From the NCBI RefSeq assembly GCF_000013445.1, contig NC_007796.1, positions 1,152,936 to 1,216,935 of the forward strand: a stretch of DNA of 64,000 nucleotides. The letters run 5' to 3'. Origin of the DNA: Methanospirillum hungatei JF-1 (GTDB lineage: Archaea > Halobacteriota > Methanomicrobia > Methanomicrobiales > Methanospirillaceae). Of the stretch, positions 7,160-15,781 are shown one piece after another. The stretch's first letter is position 1. Each line of letters opens with the position of its first letter. Made by a program: the position numbers and the translations under genes. The notes below the pieces were generated by a model, which did not search any database, was not told the DNA's origin, and saw nothing but the letters and a program-made list of their open reading frames with translations.

Positions 7160-8167
7160 TCATGGCTCCTGTCTGCAATCTGGGATGATCTTTCTCTGCT
7201 CCAGAAGGGCATCCATGAGAACCAGTGCCATCATCGCTTCAGCCACCGGCACAATCCTAACCGCAATACAGGGATCATGCCTTCCTTTAACTGAAATCTT
7301 CCGTTCCATGCCATTCGTATCCACCGTCTGCTGAAGAGTCCTGATAGACGGGGTCGGTTTGATACTGAGTCGTACGAGGATATCCTGTCCTGATGAGATC
7401 CCCCCTAAAATACCTCCAGCATTATTTGAAAGATATCCCTCGGAAGTTATCTGATCATTGTGTTCCGAACCAGTCATTGATGCAGCCATTACACCTGATC
7501 CGATCTCCACTGCTTTAACGCCGCCGATACCCATCATCGCATAGGCGATGAGAGCATCGAGTTTTCCAAATACCGGGTCACCAAGACCAGGCGGACATCC
7601 TGATACCACAAGACTGACCACGCCACCAACAGACTCTCCCTGATCCCTCGCGTCACGGATAACCTGTTCCATTCTTTCAGGAACTTCTTCACCATGAACA
7701 GAAGTCAGGGAACCGGAGATAATGATGCCTTCTTTCTCAAGATACCGTCTGGCTATAGCACCCGCTGCTACCCGTGCAGCAGTCTCCCTGCCTGAGCTCC
7801 GCCCTCCGCCACGATGATCCCGTATTCCATACTTTTCAAAATACCCCCGATCTGCATGACCTGGACGAAATATCTCTTGTAATTCATCATAATCTGCAGA
7901 TTTCATTGAAGTGTTCTGAATAAGAAGGCAGATGGGAGTGCCAAGAGTATATCCTTGAAACACTCCGGAGAGGATCTGCACTGCATCTGCTTCTTTTCGT
8001 GGAGTTACGAAATCACTCTGTCCTGGTTTTCTTTTATCAAGATAATACTGAATTTCGTTTTCAGAAATTGCAAAGCCGGGAGGACATCCATCAATAACCA
8101 CACCAATTGCTGCTCCATGACTCTCACCAAATGTGGTAACCCGAAAATTCCGACCAAAGGTATTCAT
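7160..8167 (-). CDS. aroC: Chorismate synthase
   Basis: The 335-residue enzyme converts 5-enolpyruvylshikimate-3-phosphate to chorismate using reduced FMN. Family motifs are clear: MNTFGRNFRVTTFGESHG at the start, GRSSGRETAARVAAGAIA in the middle, and AGGILGGISSG with KPTPSIRTLQQTV towards the end. Length is near the usual range, slightly short. The ATG overlaps the stop of the upstream aroK-aroE fusion as ATGA, showing translational coupling. It is the last pathway enzyme in this operon before the U32-family gene. Confidence 0.97.
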   Translation of the reverse strand: MNTFGRNFRVTTFGESHGAAIGVVIDGCPPGFAISENEIQYYLDKRKPGQSDFVTPRKEADAVQILSGVFQGYTLGTPICLLIQNTSMKSADYDELQEIFRPGHADRGYFEKYGIRDHRGGGRSSGRETAARVAAGAIARRYLEKEGIIISGSLTSVHGEEVPERMEQVIRDARDQGESVGGVVSLVVSGCPPGLGDPVFGKLDALIAYAMMGIGGVKAVEIGSGVMAASMTGSEHNDQITSEGYLSNNAGGILGGISSGQDILVRLSIKPTPSIRTLQQTVDTNGMERKISVKGRHDPCIAVRIVPVAEAMMALVLMDALLEQRKIIPDCRQEP

Positions 8168-9546
8168 GCCAGTATTTCCCGAAGTCGCGAGATCGGAGTT
8201 TCAATCCCGGTAAGAATCCGGAACTGTTCAGCGAGCTGATGAATAAACATCTCGGTTCCAGGGATTACAGAGCAACCTGAAGCCAGGGCGGCCTGAAGAA
8301 GGGGAGTATCGCGGGGAGTATAGACCAGATCAAATACCTTCATCCCAGGTTCCAGGGCGGATGGAGGGATCGGGGTATGCGGGTCTGATCCCATTCCGAT
8401 AGGCGTTGCATTGATAAGAAGATCCGGATGATATTTTCCAATATCAGCAAGGGTTCCAATCTCTGCACCACTCTTTCTTGCAAGATGCTCAGCACGTTCA
8501 GGTGTCCGGTTTAGGATCACCGGTGTAAATCCCCGCATAGAAACAGCATATACTGCCGCAGCTGCTGCCCCACCCGCTCCGAGAATTACTGCTGTGTCTC
8601 CATGAGTCCCTTCAAGAGGCCGGTAGATACCTTTCCAGTCGGTATTAAATCCATACTTTTTATCATCCTGAATGAGAATGGTGTTTACCGCACCAATGGA
8701 TTCAGCATCATGCTTGATCTCATCCAGGTAGGGAATGACTGTCTCTTTGTGAGGGATGGTCACCGATAGTCCCCGAACTCCGGTCCCTGGCAAAAGTGAG
8801 AGGAAACGACCGGGATCCTTGTGTTCAAACCAGGTGTAATGAGCTGGCATCCCATAATCTGCAAATAAATGATTGTATATCCCCGGGCTTTTACTATGCA
8901 TACATGGATATCCCAAAATTCCATAGAGGAAAATATCATAATCCCCGGATATCTTTTTAAGATGAATCTTTTCTCCTGATGGGATTGCAGTCTTCATGAC
9001 AGAGGCAAAGAGCTCTTTCCGTTTATCCGGAACACAAATTCCATTTTCAATCAGATTCAGAATTTGTTTTGCTGCCTCCTCTGGTGTGGTGATGGTGGTA
9101 TCTATCACAATGTCAGCTACACTCCGGTATATCGGCATTCGTTCTTTCAGGACCTGTTCTATCTCTTCCCTGGGAGAAAGTCCGGTAAGGGAAGGACGGT
9201 CAGATTTATGAATCCTATTAAAAATCACTTCAGGACTTGTATTCAGAAGGATTACAAGACTATTCATTCTCAGCATCCGGACATTGACAGGCCGAATAAC
9301 TGCTCCACCCCCGGTACTGATTATCCCTGCATCAGATGGTATTCGTGCAATGACATGTTGCTCAATCTCACGAAATCCGGCTTCTCCTTCTGATTCGAAT
9401 ATCTGAGAAATCTTCTTTCCCGTCACATCCTCAATGAGTTGATCTGTATCGAGGTATCCCTGACCGGTCATTCGGGAAAGCGCCTTTCCAATACTGCTTT
9501 TACCGGTCCCCCGATAACCGATCAGCACAATACGGCGTTTTGCCAT
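8164..9546 (-). CDS. aroKE: Fused shikimate kinase and shikimate dehydrogenase
   Basis: One chain of 460 residues carries two pathway enzymes. Residues about 1-170 are a bacterial-type P-loop shikimate kinase (VLIGYRGTGKSS, DTDQLIE, GGGAVIR). Residues about 190-460 are shikimate dehydrogenase, with ILGYPCMHSKSP, TIPHKE holding the catalytic Lys, FNTDWKG and the NADP-binding GAGGAA. Most archaea use an unrelated GHMP-type kinase, so this AroK looks imported. I chose the ATG at 9546 (MAKRRIVLIGY), which matches the family N terminus; an upstream start at 9594 would overlap aroA by 73 nt. With this start the overlap is 25 nt. GGAGG lies 13 nt before the ATG, a somewhat long spacing. The fusion couples non-adjacent activities: dehydrogenase makes shikimate and kinase consumes it. 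Confidence 0.94.
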   Translation of the reverse strand: MAKRRIVLIGYRGTGKSSIGKALSRMTGQGYLDTDQLIEDVTGKKISQIFESEGEAGFREIEQHVIARIPSDAGIISTGGGAVIRPVNVRMLRMNSLVILLNTSPEVIFNRIHKSDRPSLTGLSPREEIEQVLKERMPIYRSVADIVIDTTITTPEEAAKQILNLIENGICVPDKRKELFASVMKTAIPSGEKIHLKKISGDYDIFLYGILGYPCMHSKSPGIYNHLFADYGMPAHYTWFEHKDPGRFLSLLPGTGVRGLSVTIPHKETVIPYLDEIKHDAESIGAVNTILIQDDKKYGFNTDWKGIYRPLEGTHGDTAVILGAGGAAAAAVYAVSMRGFTPVILNRTPERAEHLARKSGAEIGTLADIGKYHPDLLINATPIGMGSDPHTPIPPSALEPGMKVFDLVYTPRDTPLLQAALASGCSVIPGTEMFIHQLAEQFRILTGIETPISRLREILA

Positions 9547-10814
9547 ATCCGTCGTAATTCCTCCCAAAAACCTGGATAAGATTTTGTCACACATTCAGCA
9601 TCAAGGATTGTAACATCCCCGATAAAACATCCAAGTACTGCAAAACTCATTGCAGTCCGGTGATCATTCTCCGGATGGATGATTCCTCCATGCAACGGAG
9701 CAGGATGGATGACAATAACATCCTCTTCTGTCTCAACTCTTCCCCCGAGAGTAGTCAGTCCATTCGCAATCGCCGCAATCCTATCACTCTCCTTCATCCT
9801 GAGATGGTGGACCCCGGTTATCCGGGTTGGTGAGGAGGATACCGCGGCAACCATGCAGACGGTCTGTACGATATCCGGACAATCAGCCATATCAACCTTT
9901 ATTCCTTTGAGGAGAACATCTGGATCACGGGAAAGGATGATCGACTCCCGTTTTTCGGTTATGGAACATCCCATATTGACAAGGATCTCAAGTAGTCTCC
10001 GATCTCCCTGGGCAGATTGTGGATTCAGTCCTGATATGGTAGCAGATCCCCCGCAGATCGCTGCAAGGGCAAACCAGTACGATGATGATGAGAAGTCTCC
10101 TTCAATACCATAGGTCTGTGGTTTGTACCTCCTCTGCGAAGAGATCGTGAAAACCGGTTCTTTGTCATCTCCATCGACTAAAACTTCAGCGCCAAAAGCA
10201 CGCATGCTGTCAATAGTCATCATAATATAGGGGAGCGAAACCGGATCGCCGGTCAGGTGAATATGAACATCATTGTCTGCATAGGGAGCTGCAATCAGAA
10301 GAGATGAAATAAACTGACTTGAGATACTCCCGTCCACATACATATCTCCAGCAGGAAATGTCCCATCTATCCTCACCGGCGGACATCCCGGATTCTTAAG
10401 ACAGGTAATTTTTGCACCGGCATTATTCAGGGTATCAATAAGAGGGCCTAAGGGTCGTTCCTGCATTCGCCCACTGCCGGTCAGAACGACAGGGCCATCA
10501 GCAAGAAGAGAGACTCCGGTTAAGAGCCGCATCGAGGTTCCTGAATCCTGAATGTTAATCTCCTCAACAGGGGCCTTTAGATGCCCTCCCGTACCCTGAA
10601 CGCGGATATTCTCTCTGGACCAGTCAAGCCGTACTCCAAGCTGCATAAGAGCACGCGCAGTCATTCGTGTGTCATCGGCATCCAGTTGTCCGATGATCTC
10701 AGACTGACCATCTGCAAGTGCCGCAATGATAAGTGCCCGATGAGTATAACTTTTCGAAGGAGGTGCTGAACAGCTGAAACAGACCGGTCCGCATCGTCCT
10801 ATGTTCATCTGCAT
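9522..10814 (-). CDS. aroA: 3-phosphoshikimate 1-carboxyvinyltransferase (EPSP synthase)
   Basis: The enzyme adds enolpyruvate to shikimate-3-phosphate. Motifs seen are PPSKSYTHRALI near the N terminus, LDADDTRM, QDSGTSMRLL, GSGRMQERPL, SISSQFISSLLIAAP and MKESDRIAAI. Length (430 residues) is normal. Three in-frame ATGs are near the start. I prefer 10814 because GGAGAG sits 5 nt upstream; 10808 would give a tidy ATGA junction with the pheA stop but has poorer spacing. It is translationally coupled to pheA upstream and overlaps the aroKE start downstream. Confidence 0.96.
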   Translation of the reverse strand: MQMNIGRCGPVCFSCSAPPSKSYTHRALIIAALADGQSEIIGQLDADDTRMTARALMQLGVRLDWSRENIRVQGTGGHLKAPVEEINIQDSGTSMRLLTGVSLLADGPVVLTGSGRMQERPLGPLIDTLNNAGAKITCLKNPGCPPVRIDGTFPAGDMYVDGSISSQFISSLLIAAPYADNDVHIHLTGDPVSLPYIMMTIDSMRAFGAEVLVDGDDKEPVFTISSQRRYKPQTYGIEGDFSSSSYWFALAAICGGSATISGLNPQSAQGDRRLLEILVNMGCSITEKRESIILSRDPDVLLKGIKVDMADCPDIVQTVCMVAAVSSSPTRITGVHHLRMKESDRIAAIANGLTTLGGRVETEEDVIVIHPAPLHGGIIHPENDHRTAMSFAVLGCFIGDVTILDAECVTKSYPGFWEELRRIWQNAVLC

Positions 10815-11599
10815 GGATTCTCTCCGGTCAGATGATAACAACCCAGATGTTTTACCCTGGTGATTTTCCTGATACGATCAATTGCCTCTTTCCATTCACC
10901 TTCGCATTGCAGGTCAATAAAGAAGACATAATTTCCCATACATCTCTTTGAAGGCCGTGATTCAATCCTGGTCAAATTTACTCCGGTCTCCTTGAATGGA
11001 CTGAGAAGATCATATAAAAGACCGGCGCGGTTTTCTCCTGGATCAACTATTATACTGCATTTTTCTGGATGTTCATTGCTGTAGGGCTCTCTCCGAATCA
11101 CAATGAACCGGGTGATATTATCGGGATTATTCTCAATATTACTGGCAAGTACCGGGATACCTGAACTATCAGCCAGAGTCTGTGAAAGAATGGCACCAGA
11201 TCCTGGTCGTTCTTTCTGGGCAAGGGCACTTGCAGCATTACTCTCGGTATGAATGACCGGAATGCCCAGATCATCAATAAATTTGCTGCATTGCTCATGA
11301 CTTTGCGGATGAGCGAAGATAACTGAAATTTTATCGAGAGTTGTATGTGATGCCAGAGTATGATGAATCGGCATGTACCGTTCTTCAGAGATGTAAACCG
11401 GATGCTGCATGAGGCCGTCCATGGTTGCTGTAACTCCACCGGCTTCACTGTTCTCAAGAGGAACAAGACCCGGGATGCCGGTCTGAAGTACCTGAGTAAA
11501 AACCCGGCCGATTGTCGGGACGAGAATGATCTCCGTATCTATCATACATGCAAGATCATGCGAAAAAGTCCCTGCTGGACCAAGAGTTATGAGAGTCAC
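10805..11599 (-). CDS. pheA: Prephenate dehydratase
   Basis: This 264-residue protein converts prephenate to phenylpyruvate for phenylalanine synthesis. The catalytic domain (about 1-180) has LGPAGTFSHDLA at the N terminus, VPLENSEAGGV and TRFIVI. An ACT regulatory domain follows (about 190-264) with the ESRPS motif that binds phenylalanine in the family, so feedback inhibition is likely. There is no chorismate mutase domain. The start overlaps the tyrA stop by 4 nt (ATGA), and its end overlaps the aroA start. Confidence 0.95.
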   Translation of the reverse strand: MTLITLGPAGTFSHDLACMIDTEIILVPTIGRVFTQVLQTGIPGLVPLENSEAGGVTATMDGLMQHPVYISEERYMPIHHTLASHTTLDKISVIFAHPQSHEQCSKFIDDLGIPVIHTESNAASALAQKERPGSGAILSQTLADSSGIPVLASNIENNPDNITRFIVIRREPYSNEHPEKCSIIVDPGENRAGLLYDLLSPFKETGVNLTRIESRPSKRCMGNYVFFIDLQCEGEWKEAIDRIRKITRVKHLGCYHLTGENPCR

Positions 11600-12420
11600 C
11601 TGCTCACCATCGCCTGAATAAGGAGGTCAGTCTCCTTTTGTGCCTGGTCGCAGAATGATCCGTACCATTCGCGGGATGCAAGAAATTCTCCGGTAAATGC
11701 ATTCCGATCTCCTTCTTGAATTATACATAACATCTCATCAAACGCCTGCTTACAGGTATCCAGAACTGAAGGAACCTGAGGATTCATACAGAGGATATCA
11801 GCGTAAAGGTCTGGATTTTGAGCAAGTAATCTTCCTGCGATTCCGGTTTCGATCCGGTACACCGGACTCATATATGATTCAGTATCTGCCGGGGATATCC
11901 CAAGCCTCCTCATGGTCCCGGCTAGCAATATTGCCTTAAAATGAGTCAGCCCCTGAATCACTGCCATCATCCTGTCATGCTCTTCAGCTGTCGTTATCGT
12001 AACCCGGGCACCCTGGCTTTCAAAAATCTTCTGAAAAAAACTCAAATCATTCTCATGACATCGGGCGGGGGTAGCAACTATCGTCTGTCCCTGGATGGTC
12101 CCGACAGTCGGGCCAAACATCGGATGAAGTCCGATAACCCTGGCTTTCGAACACATCATAGCATTGACCGGATCAATCTTTAATGAAGTCAGATCTGCCA
12201 GGATCTGATGTTCACCAAGGAGGGGGGCTATCTCATAAATGACAGAGACCGTGTCTCTGATCGGAACAGAAATTACTATGACATCAGCCAGGCGGGCAAT
12301 ATCCTCTTTCTTTAGGGGAGTATTCCGTCCGGCTATGAGTACTTCGTGACCGGCGTTGCGAAAAACCTGTGAAAACAGATTTCCCATGCCCCCGGTCCCG
12401 CCAATGATGCCAATCTTCAT
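11596..12420 (-). CDS. tyrA: Prephenate dehydrogenase
   Basis: The enzyme makes 4-hydroxyphenylpyruvate for tyrosine synthesis. The N terminus MKIGIIGGTGGMGNLF is the NAD(P)-binding Rossmann motif, and HPMFGPTVG and VIQGLTHF are typical TyrA elements. I chose the ATG at 12420, which lies 1 nt after the stop of dehydroquinate synthase; a longer frame from 12474 adds 18 residues not expected in the family. Length is 274 residues. No ACT or chorismate mutase domain is visible, so chorismate mutase must be encoded elsewhere. Confidence 0.94.
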   Translation of the reverse strand: MKIGIIGGTGGMGNLFSQVFRNAGHEVLIAGRNTPLKKEDIARLADVIVISVPIRDTVSVIYEIAPLLGEHQILADLTSLKIDPVNAMMCSKARVIGLHPMFGPTVGTIQGQTIVATPARCHENDLSFFQKIFESQGARVTITTAEEHDRMMAVIQGLTHFKAILLAGTMRRLGISPADTESYMSPVYRIETGIAGRLLAQNPDLYADILCMNPQVPSVLDTCKQAFDEMLCIIQEGDRNAFTGEFLASREWYGSFCDQAQKETDLLIQAMVSR

Positions 12421-12421
12421 G

Positions 12422-13408
12422 TTATTTCTCAATGATGGTCTCATCAATTGCCATACCAAAATGACGACCGCCACTTTCTACACGGCCCAGGACAACATCA
12501 CCGGGTTTGAGTGAGGTTACAGATACTGCCGAATTATCCGGGCGAACAAGCCTGATGGTCTCTGCATTCTGCAGGATAATTGATACCTTCTGACACTCGC
12601 TCTCTGCTTCAACAAGAAAGAGCGGACGCCGTTCAATTTTCACCCTGCCAACAGTCGCTTCCCGGCAGGATCCGTTTCCATGAACTATCATCACCCGGTC
12701 ACCTGCCTTCAGGTCAGCCAGATATGCAGTCTTTCCTTCCGGAACCTGCAGATATGCATGAACGCCACCTGCATTCACCCTGAACGGCCTGGGCGCTACA
12801 TAGGGATTTACAAGCGTCTCTGCATGAACGAGAAAAAATCCGGATGATGTATTTCCAACAAGCATCCCTTCGCCGTCAACCATAAGAGAACAGGTATCGA
12901 CACAGACCCTCTCACCCATTCCGGCAGGTTTTACAGTGGTTACGGTCAGACGGTGGAGTTGTTGTCCGGATATTCCTGACTGAACCATCCGACATATGGA
13001 TCTGACAAGGTCCGGATCATCCGTTTTCACGAGGACACCCGAGACTCCTTTTTCAAGTACAGTCAGAGCCTGCTCAGCCTCTTTTATATCTGAAACGACG
13101 GCTATTACATTGTCCCCGCATGCCACCAGGTTTTCAAGAGGAATTATCGTCCAGTCAGGAGTGTGCACGATAATGCGGCAGGTCCTGGCAGCTTCCATTG
13201 CACGAGCCTGGTCCTCTGTATTCCCAATAGTAATCTCATGAATATCCTGCCCCGGAATTAGATCCCCATCAGGAGCGATGACCAGAATACGGCCCAGTTC
13301 TCTGACCGGACCTGCTGAATCTGCAATTACTCCTGCAGCTCCTGATTCAAGGGCGGCTATTGCAAGTTCCTTATCCCACGGACGAAGGTCTACAAATACC
13401 TGTTTCAT
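12422..13408 (-). CDS. 3-dehydroquinate synthase II (DKFP pathway)
   Basis: This 328-residue enzyme belongs to the archaeal type II dehydroquinate synthases, unrelated to bacterial AroB. It oxidatively deaminates and cyclises 2-amino-3,7-dideoxy-hept-6-ulosonate to 3-dehydroquinate with NAD. Family features are the N-terminal VFVDLRPWDKELAI, LVKTDDPDLV, the conserved core GEGMLVGNTSSGFFLVHAET, RPFRVNAGGVHAY and the C-terminal GGRHFGMAIDE. It is 6 nt from the preceding aldolase paralog and 1 nt from tyrA, so it is firmly inside the operon. Confidence 0.96.
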   Translation of the reverse strand: MKQVFVDLRPWDKELAIAALESGAAGVIADSAGPVRELGRILVIAPDGDLIPGQDIHEITIGNTEDQARAMEAARTCRIIVHTPDWTIIPLENLVACGDNVIAVVSDIKEAEQALTVLEKGVSGVLVKTDDPDLVRSICRMVQSGISGQQLHRLTVTTVKPAGMGERVCVDTCSLMVDGEGMLVGNTSSGFFLVHAETLVNPYVAPRPFRVNAGGVHAYLQVPEGKTAYLADLKAGDRVMIVHGNGSCREATVGRVKIERRPLFLVEAESECQKVSIILQNAETIRLVRPDNSAVSVTSLKPGDVVLGRVESGGRHFGMAIDETIIEK

Positions 13409-13414
13409 ATTCCC

Positions 13415-14188
13415 TCAAATAGCCTCAGGACGGACTCCCTGATGTACGACCTGCGATATATTGGACACAAATTTTGCAACATTGTCACGCTGGAAAGCAT
13501 TTCTTCCCATGCAGACCCCGGCACATTTTGCAAAGTGGACAGCATCGTAGATGGTCTTGTAACAGTCCAGGTCCTCTCCTTTCTCTCCACCTGCAATCAG
13601 TACCGGGATGGACGATGCCTTCACAATCTTTGCAAATGATTCCGGATCACCGGTGTAGTTCGTTTTTACCAGATCAGCACCCAGTTCTTCAGCCACACGA
13701 ACCGCATGACCGACATGTCGTGGATCATTTGGATCAATACCCTTCCCACGCGGGTAGATCATTGCGAGGAGAGGAATCCCCCAACGGTTACAGTCACGGA
13801 CAACCATGCCGGCAGATTCAATCATCTTTGATTCCTGTGGTGCACCAAGATTTATGTGAATGGATACCGCATCTGCTCCAAGTGATACCGCTTCTTCAAC
13901 ACTGCAGATGAGGACTTTGTCATTCGGGTCAGGATTCATGCTTGTACCGGCAGAAAGATGAATAATAAGCCCTATATCCCGTCCTTTTCTCCGATGACCC
14001 GGACGTACAAGGCCTTTATGCAGGATGATGGCATTTGCTCCACCGTCAGATACTTCGGCAACAGTCTCGGTCATATTTAAAAGACCGTCAATCTGTCCCA
14101 GAGTCATCCCATGATCCATGGGGATTATTACCGCTTTTCCGGTATTTCTATCCATTATCCGTTCGATACGGATCTGTTTTCCAATCAT
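13415..14188 (-). CDS. ADTH synthase / class I aldolase-like paralog B (DKFP pathway)
   Basis: This 257-residue TIM-barrel protein belongs to the family of archaeal class I aldolases that includes ADTH synthase and DKFP synthase. PMDHG near residue 25 and the Schiff-base Lys in [11 protein letters not shown] are present, as are the conserved [11 protein letters not shown] and MGRNAFQ. It is a tandem paralog of the next gene upstream, with which it overlaps as ATGA. Methanocaldococcus uses two members, MJ0400-like ADTH synthase and MJ1585-like DKFP synthase. This copy diverges more from my recollection of MJ0400 and could supply the second step or a fructose-bisphosphate aldolase activity. That division of labour is inferred. 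Confidence 0.9.
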
Positions 14189-14985
14189 AACATGCCTCCT
14201 TTCAGCATCTCATGCACTTCAGCTGCACTCATACCGTCATGAACAATTTTTGCACAAGCACGGACAAATGATGCCGGATTTGCATGCTGGAACGCATTTC
14301 TTCCGATAGAGAGTCCGGCTGCCCCGCCTTCCATCGAACCTTCGATAAGTTCAAGAGTGGTAAGATCATCCGTCTTTGATCCTCCTGCCACTACAACCGG
14401 AACCGGACAGCCCCTGGTAACTTCACGGAAAGTATCAGGATCACCGGTGTAATTGGTCTTCACAAGGTCAGCTCCTAGTTCTGCAGCCACCCTGGCCGCA
14501 AGCCGTACATGCTCCACGGCATGTTCGTCATCAATCTTCCGGCCACGCGGGTACATCATGGCAAGGAGCGGAACTCCCCATTCCATACATTCAATGGCAA
14601 CATGCCCGAGATCGGTCAGCATATGTGCTTCAGAATCGGCACCGATATTCACATGCATCGAAACTGCATCTGCACCCATCTTCAGGGCATTTGTTACCGA
14701 ATTGACCAGCACTTTTTCATTCGGATCCGGCCCGATAGCAGTCGATGCCGAGAGATGCAGAATAAGGCCGACATCATGGCCCCGTTGCCGGTGACCATGC
14801 AGGGCCAGACCCACATGACCTAGGACTGCATTTGCCCCCCCCTCTGCAACAGAATTTACTGCATCAGGAAGATCCACAAGGCCCTCAATGGGTCCAAGGG
14901 TTACTCCATGATCCATGGGAACAATAATTGTCTTTCTGGTGTTGCGATTCATGATTCTTTCAAGTCTGATATCTTTCCCTCTCAT
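14185..14985 (-). CDS. 2-amino-3,7-dideoxy-D-threo-hept-6-ulosonate (ADTH) synthase
   Basis: This 266-residue protein is the first structural gene of the aromatic operon. The family condenses 6-deoxy-5-ketofructose-1-phosphate with aspartate semialdehyde. The conserved [11 protein letters not shown], the MYPRG loop, the catalytic Lys in [23 protein letters not shown] and IGRNAFQH are all seen. The sequence resembles MJ0400-type enzymes more closely than the downstream paralog does. Translation starts at an ATG preceded by AAGGAGTGATC with good spacing. That Shine-Dalgarno is the element that the leader RNA upstream could sequester, so expression of this gene is likely the control point of the operon. 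Confidence 0.94.
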
Positions 14986-14990
14986 AACAG

Positions 14991-15074
14991 ATCACTCCTT
15001 TTTGATACGAGTAATCACTCAGTACCAAAAAAACTGATAAAAGCTAAAAAAGAACGAATAAAAACGATACTCGT
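14991..15074 (-). promoter_or_regulatory. Putative attenuator: alternative RNA hairpins before the ADTH synthase Shine-Dalgarno
   Basis: Seen on the minus strand: segment A, ACGAGTA (15068-15074), lies inside the leader frame just before its aromatic run. Segment 1, GAGT (15017-15020), overlaps the leader stop. Segment 2, ATTACTCGT (15007-15015), follows. Segment 3, GAGTGAT (14991-14997), is the Shine-Dalgarno of the first structural gene. Segment 2 can pair with A (7 Watson-Crick pairs), with 1 (short hairpin at the stop codon, extended by TAC/GTA around a bulge), or with 3 (7 pairs with one wobble, hiding the Shine-Dalgarno). The three pairings exclude one another. T-runs of 6 and 7 within the leader could also act as archaeal oligo-T termination signals. 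Which structure means ON cannot be read from sequence. Confidence 0.6.
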
Positions 15075-15162
15075 CAGAACGGTCGTTCGGTACAAAAGAC
15101 AAGCTGGAAGAAGCAGAACTGCAGAACGCAACAGACTTCACACCCTCCACACAGTTTGTCAT
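15019..15162 (-). CDS. Aromatic-rich leader peptide of the aromatic operon
   Basis: The 47-codon frame starts MTNCVEGVKSV and ends YRFYSFFFSFYQFFWY followed by TGA. The last 16 codons hold 7 Phe, 4 Tyr and 1 Trp. The ATG lies about 25 nt after the centre of a TATA box at 15184-15191, so the transcript probably starts at or next to the ATG and the peptide is read from a leaderless mRNA. The stop lies 33 nt before the ATG of ADTH synthase, first gene for Phe, Tyr and Trp synthesis. The arrangement is that of trp/phe leader peptides in bacteria, where ribosome stalling at scarce cognate codons controls the operon. The caveat is that T-rich DNA encodes Phe by default; the TAT, TAC and TGG codons and the location argue against chance. 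Confidence 0.72.
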   Translation of the reverse strand: MTNCVEGVKSVAFCSSASSSLSFVPNDRSDEYRFYSFFFSFYQFFWY

Positions 15163-15183
15163 GATCAGGGGTCAGTGTTGTTA

Positions 15184-15191
15184 CTTATAAA
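15184..15191 (-). promoter_or_regulatory. TATA box of the aromatic operon
   Basis: TTTATAAG on the minus strand is preceded by the direct repeat GATAGCGATAG, which may hold a purine-rich BRE. The predicted transcription start about 25 nt downstream falls at the leader-peptide ATG (15162). It lies about 87 nt after the MBF1 stop, so the operon has its own promoter. Confidence 0.65.
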
Positions 15192-15206
15192 CCTATCGCT
15201 ATCGTG

Positions 15207-15227
15207 CCATGCCATAGCATAGCATGG
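15207..15227 (-). promoter_or_regulatory. Inverted repeat upstream of the aromatic operon TATA box
   Basis: CCATGC and GCATGG flank a 9-nt spacer (catagcata), about 15 bp upstream of the TATA box. A TGTACA hexamer, the core of the TRP box bound by TrpY in Methanothermobacter, is just beyond at 15232-15237. Either could be an operator, or the repeat could be a terminator hairpin for MBF1. Evidence for any one role is weak. Confidence 0.35.
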
Positions 15228-15277
15228 ATGATGTACAATGCCTACATTATCATTTCACGCACAAAAAATGAGGAAAA

Positions 15278-15781
15278 TTACTTCTTCGCCTTCTTGATCT
15301 GGATGACATCCCCCATCGTGGTAGTCATCCTGGCGTGGTGCAGATCAGTCGGTTCTGATGAACCTTCGTCCAGCAGACTGATATTGAGTATCTTTTCCAA
15401 CTTCTTTCGAACCTCATCTTCCGGTATCAGTTCGCCTTTTTCAAGTTTCTTTACGAGGAGCTCACGCTCCATCATGGCAAGGGCAAGATCTTTCTGGGTC
15501 ATTCCCAGTTTCATCCGTGCATCCCGAATCCGGTCAGCATAATCTTCAACAAGATCGCCTCCCATCCGGTCAAACAGATCCCTGGATCGTTGGACCTGTG
15601 GTCTTGTGGAACCGGAATAGGCGGATGTTCGTACTGCCTGTGCTGCAGATGTCCGGGGAACTGCTCCCTGGACTTCAGTGCCATATTTTGCACAGCCATT
15701 ACACACCGAGAGCTCGGCCCCTTCGATCTTGATCCTTTTCAAAGGGCCTTTGGCTTCTGCGCCGCACATTTCACACTGCAT
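15278..15781 (-). CDS. Archaeal multiprotein bridging factor 1 (aMBF1)
   Basis: The product has an N-terminal zinc ribbon (MQCEMCG and CNGCAKYG) and a C-terminal Cro-type helix-turn-helix (about DARMKLGMTQKDLALAMM), the standard aMBF1 layout. It is thought to bridge regulators and the basal transcription machinery and to act in translation. I chose the ATG at 15781 because a TATA box in the 34-nt divergent gap to PAN (15813-15820) would put the transcript start near 15790. Upstream ATGs at 15793 and 15796 would then be excluded or marginal. The divergent start with PAN is very compact. Confidence 0.9.
   Translation of the reverse strand: MQCEMCGAEAKGPLKRIKIEGAELSVCNGCAKYGTEVQGAVPRTSAAQAVRTSAYSGSTRPQVQRSRDLFDRMGGDLVEDYADRIRDARMKLGMTQKDLALAMMERELLVKKLEKGELIPEDEVRKKLEKILNISLLDEGSSEPTDLHHARMTTTMGDVIQIKKAKK

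Follow-up and report, generated by a model that had tools for sequence, protein, structure and literature searches.

A putative leader-peptide sensor upstream of the aromatic amino acid operon of Methanospirillum hungatei

The window analysed here is a 64 kb stretch of the 3,544,738-base, single-contig genome of Methanospirillum hungatei JF-1 (G000), and carries an eight-gene operon for aromatic biosynthesis on its minus strand. The first gene (14185..14985, minus strand) encodes 2-amino-3,7-dideoxy-D-threo-hept-6-ulosonate (ADTH) synthase and matches TIGR01949 above the cut-off. The remaining genes span 7160..14188 on the same strand, with identities partly read from sequence alone, and include a second ADTH synthase homologue (14188-13415), 3-dehydroquinate synthase II (13408-12422) and prephenate dehydratase (11599-10805), with prephenate dehydrogenase located between the latter two. 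The ORFs that follow prephenate dehydratase, also on the minus strand, are named from sequence only as putative EPSP synthase, shikimate kinase/dehydrogenase and chorismate synthase. The first operon gene has a Shine-Dalgarno site, GGAGTGATC (14990..14998, minus strand), that is complementary to the 16S tail GAUCACCUCC, and GGATCACCTCCT occurs 6 times in the genome. Just upstream of the operon sits a leader ORF of 47 codons plus a TGA stop, MTNCVEGVKSVAFCSSASSSLSFVPNDRSDEYRFYSFFFSFYQFFWY (15019..15162, minus strand), which starts with the ATG at 15162-15160 and stops at 15021-15019, and relatives have an aromatic-ended ORF in the same place.

A TATA-like box, TTTATAAG (15184..15191, minus strand), marks the inferred promoter position, and the transcript would be expected to start at or near the leader ATG, making it leaderless or nearly so. 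Directly upstream of this box is an imperfect palindrome, CCATGCtatgctatgGCATGG (15207..15227). Palindromes of the type CCATGC...GCATGG are found at the matching position across the Methanospirillum loci L002-L012, and the element is a possible transcription-factor site. Further upstream, T4 and T6 runs after the stop codon of the neighbouring aMBF1 gene (15263-15277) resemble the aMBF1 terminator.

The leader ends in an aromatic tail, YRFYSFFFSFYQFFWY (15022..15069, minus strand), in which 12 of the 16 codons specify Phe, Tyr or Trp. On the minus strand, the leader codons here read ...CGT TTT TAT TCG TTC TTT TTT AGC TTT TAT CAG TTT TTT TGG TAC TGA. This aromatic content is the highest among 268 upstream regions, the runner-up having 9 such codons, and chance does not explain the aromatic-rich peptide itself. 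The first-pass annotation had drawn attention to runs of six and seven T within the leader frame on the transcript-sense strand, and both are present: the T6 run at 15051-15046 consists of two TTT Phe codons, and the T7 run at 15033-15027 of TTT TTT and the first T of the Trp codon. Two further runs accompany those named, a T5 run (15060..15064, minus strand) and a T4 run (15039..15042, minus strand) made of TTT and the T of TAT. The T-runs are built from Phe codons together with the opening T of the codon that follows, and with T5, T6, T4 and T7 falling within 38 nt, the leader RNA contains at least two U4 tracts close together.

Conservation of the leader was assessed in 61 genomes of the same order of methanogenic archaea, in the region preceding the orthologous ADTH synthase gene, and in 58 of these an ORF ending in an aromatic cluster lies shortly before the gene. 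A named set of genomes (largely the same ones) repeats the leader, and includes Methanospirillum stamsii, Methanolinea, Methanoregula and Methanoculleus. The leader sequence diverges across the order although the leader is kept, with ends elsewhere in the order such as FWPFSGFRYFSYFWY, FYRYFNWFSQF, RFAYFNYFRYFGYRA and FFSNFSVYYRFYYWY, each followed by the stop codon. In 50 of 57 distinct leaders with a common 5′ element, the tail is open in one frame at lengths that vary from 37 to 68 codons, which argues that the ORF is maintained. The distance from the leader stop to the gene start has a median of 45 nt. The weakest leaders hold 4-7 aromatic codons out of 16 and are not outstanding singly, the evidence for them being their common position. 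In the three genomes that have no leader (L059-L061), the only ADTH homologue found is 51-54% identical; all three have a palindromic element such as GTGTTAACACGTAGCAC closely upstream of this remaining homologue.

A strongly conserved 5′ element is also present at the expected transcript start in L036 and most loci outside Methanospirillum (e.g., ATGCGTGGTGAATGTTTTTTCGCCGGTGAATGTTTTTATC). An ATG in this element, shifted by one frame relative to the aromatic leader, opens a short ORF, MRGECFFAGECFY, that runs to its own stop, and the element is also an 18-nt tandem repeat. In these loci, translation of the long leader therefore seems to need a GTG start or a +1 shift.

Codon choice in the tails is biased. 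Across 21 genomes, 84 of 111 Phe residues in the tails are encoded by TTT where 55 would be expected, and 57 of 67 Tyr residues by TAT where 34 would be. Other pyrimidine-ending codons in the leaders are without such bias (46 vs 55 expected; z -1.7, where codon and run counts treat related leaders as independent and the z-values here and below are somewhat inflated). General selection for U-rich RNA is ruled out, as the bias is confined to Phe and Tyr codons. The TTT/TAT bias was also sought in 131 aromatic-rich windows of ordinary genes, where there was none, ruling out a trait of any aromatic-rich stretch. In archaea, one tRNA with the anticodon GAA reads both Phe codons, and GUA reads both Tyr codons. 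With these single anticodons, TTT and TAT are the wobble-read members of each pair, and the simplest reading of the preference is that slower or more sensitive sensor codons would be chosen.

Having noted the T-runs, the first-pass annotation proposed that the Phe codons play a dual role, serving both as regulatory codons and as a conditional terminator. Part of this proposal stands: codons of a regulatory type are present in a real, conserved leader, and the U-tract content is terminator-like. Run statistics were computed on 464 kb of G000. In its coding sense strands (352 kb), runs of at least six T occur at 0.33 per kb and runs of at least seven T at 0.08 per kb, compared to 2.64 and 1.39 per kb, respectively, in the 100 nt after stops, so that the post-stop regions are 8 and 17 times denser than the insides of genes. 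Three runs of T5 or longer within 45 nt occur once in the 352 kb of G000 coding sequence, and at least two U4 tracts are found in the last 60 nt of 43 of the 58 leaders, compared to 2.1% of 60-nt G000 coding windows. Given this peptide and the codon usage of G000, the probability of a longest run of at least seven is 0.72, and that of at least three runs of T5 or longer is 0.17. The stretch is unusual as DNA, yet it is fully accounted for by the coding of this peptide.

The idea that the T-runs have a second, selected function did not hold up: maintenance of the U-tracts as such in relatives was looked for in run length, in shuffles and in the context of TTT, and none of the three showed it. 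The longest T-run is four or shorter in 22 of the 58 leaders (L059-L061 left out). The longest runs of the leaders come to 297, compared to 321.8 after synonymous-codon shuffling of each leader (z -3.8), and the shortfall persists when the sample is reduced to about one leader per genus (z -2.8); ordinary aromatic-rich coding windows give z -1.5 in the same test. The number of U4 tracts in the leaders equals the shuffled value (50 vs 50.6). The share of TTT is 0.63 before T and 0.90 otherwise, where both are expected to be ∼0.5. Were T-run building the motive, TTT would be favored most before T, and the opposite is seen, which argues against selection for T-runs. Tyr and Trp, moreover, make up ∼45% of the leader aromatic codons, and by themselves make no T-runs. 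A conserved T-run element is thereby ruled out by the conservation, permutation and context tests. Aromatic codons all begin with T and TTT is preferred over TTC, from which T-runs arise; the runs look like a by-product of the sensor codons rather than a separately maintained terminator.

Two hairpins around the end of the leader are supported by covariation and folds. Hairpin H1 (15004..15026, minus strand; GGUAC-U-GAGU/ACUC-GUAUC) has a 5′ arm formed, in Methanospirillum, by the last two codons of the leader and its stop codon. The alternative hairpin H2 (14990..15016, minus strand) pairs 15016-15009 (GAUUACUC) with 14997-14990 (GAGUGAUC). Bases 15012-15009 are common to both, making H1 and H2 mutually exclusive. 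For H1, 97% of cells are paired in 11 Methanospirillum sequences, with 3 pairs showing two-sided change; for H2, 95.5% of cells are paired, with 2 such pairs. Most of these changes trace back to a single division within the genus (L009-L012 vs the rest) and represent few independent events. Sliding either hairpin by 1-3 columns drops the pairing to 24-48%. In folding, the first gene's Shine-Dalgarno site is exposed when H1 forms and hidden when H2 does, and the two hairpins have nearly equal folding energies in the window’s species. When the H1 5′ arm is masked, the mean unpaired probability of the Shine-Dalgarno site falls from 0.24 to 0.00 in L001, leaving it almost fully paired, and masking lowers this probability in every other Methanospirillum locus as well.

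H1 itself is seen in Methanospirillum only. Most of the folded loci have a hairpin after the leader stop that often includes part of the Shine-Dalgarno site, and in many other genera this hairpin begins within a few bases of the stop; in some, it leaves the Shine-Dalgarno site uncovered. In the many genera with the closely spaced hairpin, stalling of a ribosome on the final codons or close to them would hold the post-stop hairpin open, which is a sensible regulatory sign. For Methanospirillum, the sign is not readable from the sequence.

Taken together, the locus is probably a leader-peptide sensor (attenuator) that serves an archaeal operon for aromatic amino acids. Ribosomes would translate the short leader, which is packed with Phe, Tyr and Trp codons at its end, and when charged aromatic tRNA is scarce they would slow or stall at the tail. 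The position of the ribosome would then select between H1 and H2 around the leader stop codon, such that the choice of H1 opens the Shine-Dalgarno site of the first gene and the choice of H2 hides it. Because H1 and H2 act on the Shine-Dalgarno site, control would most likely be exerted at translation initiation, and the two exclusive, covarying hairpins appear to be a better-supported switch than a T-run terminator. If true, the order-wide leader and its Phe/Tyr-limited codon bias would be direct evidence that translating ribosomes read tRNA charging in archaea.

Amino acid sensing by a leader peptide is a classic bacterial mechanism. In the ribosome-mediated transcription attenuation of enteric pheA, trp and his, the operon is likewise directly preceded by a short leader ORF in which codons for the end product abound, and alternative RNA structures that exclude each other around the end of the leader are a further feature shared with the bacterial type. 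Unlike bacterial attenuators, the locus described here has no terminator hairpin and T-run before the first gene, its alternative hairpins would act on the Shine-Dalgarno site, and its host is an archaeon. In translational attenuation of the erm type, a leader ORF precedes a hairpin in which the Shine-Dalgarno site of the downstream gene is sequestered. The same arrangement is found here, and folding likewise predicts two states, with the site base-paired in one and accessible in the other, but erm-type systems sense an antibiotic, whereas the signal here would be aromatic tRNA charging. Bacterial leaders also depend on the choice among synonymous codons, and the biased choice in enteric attenuators resembles that seen here (PMC1183508). 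Archaeal regulation of aromatic synthesis was described in 2019 as little known beyond TrpY (PMC6737238), no report of leader-peptide amino acid sensing in archaea was found in the open-access literature searched, and the sensor is apparently of a type that archaea were not known to have.

A conditional transcription terminator is the alternative most directly tied to the T-runs. When the leader is not covered by ribosomes, aCPSF1/FttA would bind the U-tracts and transcription would stop before the operon, with translation suppressing the stop; we consider this unlikely. Its appeal lies in the enrichment of long T-runs after stop codons described above, in the U4 tracts of most leaders, in a candidate RMMBL-domain protein that is encoded, and in the modest needs of the machinery: efficient binding of aCPSF1 requires at least two U4 tracts in Methanococcus maripaludis (PMC8716108), and the U-rich RNA that FttA uses lies 30-36 nt behind the polymerase (PMC11616081). 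Known aCPSF1/FttA terminators have several U4-U7 tracts within ∼40 nt, as does the leader; unlike theirs, the tracts here lie within a translated frame where the transcript begins, are explained by codons and are not conserved in run length. Runs that fall below shuffles of the leaders’ own codons, a U4 tract number no higher than in shuffles, and a TTT preference that weakens where a run would lengthen all argue against such a terminator. The T-run after the neighboring aMBF1 stop provides a contrast, as it stays at T5-T7 in eight Methanospirillum loci with varying surrounding bases and without a coding reason. The sign would also be wrong: a ribosome halted by starvation on the first Phe codons would leave the U-tracts beyond it exposed, T7 among them, and starvation would thus cut transcription of an operon that is needed. 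A conditional terminator is physically possible, but is without comparative support. A variant in which the aromatic codons double as aCPSF1/FttA sites and leader translation decides operon transcription is equally doubtful; it would need no hairpin terminator and could possibly act jointly with the Shine-Dalgarno switch, and the leader is a natural site for asking whether archaeal transcription termination depends on leader translation. An intrinsic terminator of the hairpin-plus-T type was rejected, with none found between the leader and the first gene and no terminator-like site (a stem-loop followed by a T-run) in 14800-15400; from the leader stop to the start of the gene, 50 of the 58 leaders have no T-run longer than four.

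Two further readings dispense with sensing by the leader. The T-runs may have no regulatory role and the leader may encode an unremarkable small protein or act as a coupling ORF, doing no more than hand ribosomes to the first gene. The small gap from stop to start (the median given above) would allow re-initiation, and the T-runs agree with the peptide and codon usage, but a generic small protein is not expected to place its terminal aromatic codons always before aromatic biosynthesis genes, nor to have a codon bias limited to Phe and Tyr, and we find this rather improbable. Somewhat more improbable is that the main control is a DNA-binding protein that occupies the palindrome ahead of the TATA box, as TrpY is for Methanothermobacter trp, with the leader adding little. 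The palindrome at 15227-15207 is kept within the genus, and the trpE genes of these genomes have TrpY-like TGTAYATATATGTAC elements and no Trp leader, yet such a regulator leaves the conserved aromatic tail, the codon bias and the hairpins unexplained. TrpY and Tar are the known regulators of aromatic genes in archaea (PMC6737238), which favors a regulator of this kind; the two act on the same pathway but, unlike the system proposed here, are protein regulators at promoters and have no leader peptide (PMC6737238).

Among the other archaea sampled, the aromatic leader was absent: neither 20 loci from the phylum's remaining families nor the archaeal loci from outside the order among L197-L231 showed it. 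Rough scans of these genomes, with some loci taken from an internal start, found neither a Trp leader ahead of trpE nor a His leader ahead of hisG, which argues against a general family of such leaders in these genomes, and curated Rfam covariance models gave no match to a relevant riboswitch or leader family. L069, L074, L076 and other trpE loci have TGTAYATATATGTAC-like elements upstream, as in TrpY control. Among bacterial metagenome-assembled contigs, L201, L200, L214-L216 and L218 (Gracilibacteria, Desulfobacteraceae and relatives) encode a similar ADTH synthase and carry aromatic-rich short ORFs upstream of it, such as MNTNRFYFYGFYFWIT, which ends at a stop codon.
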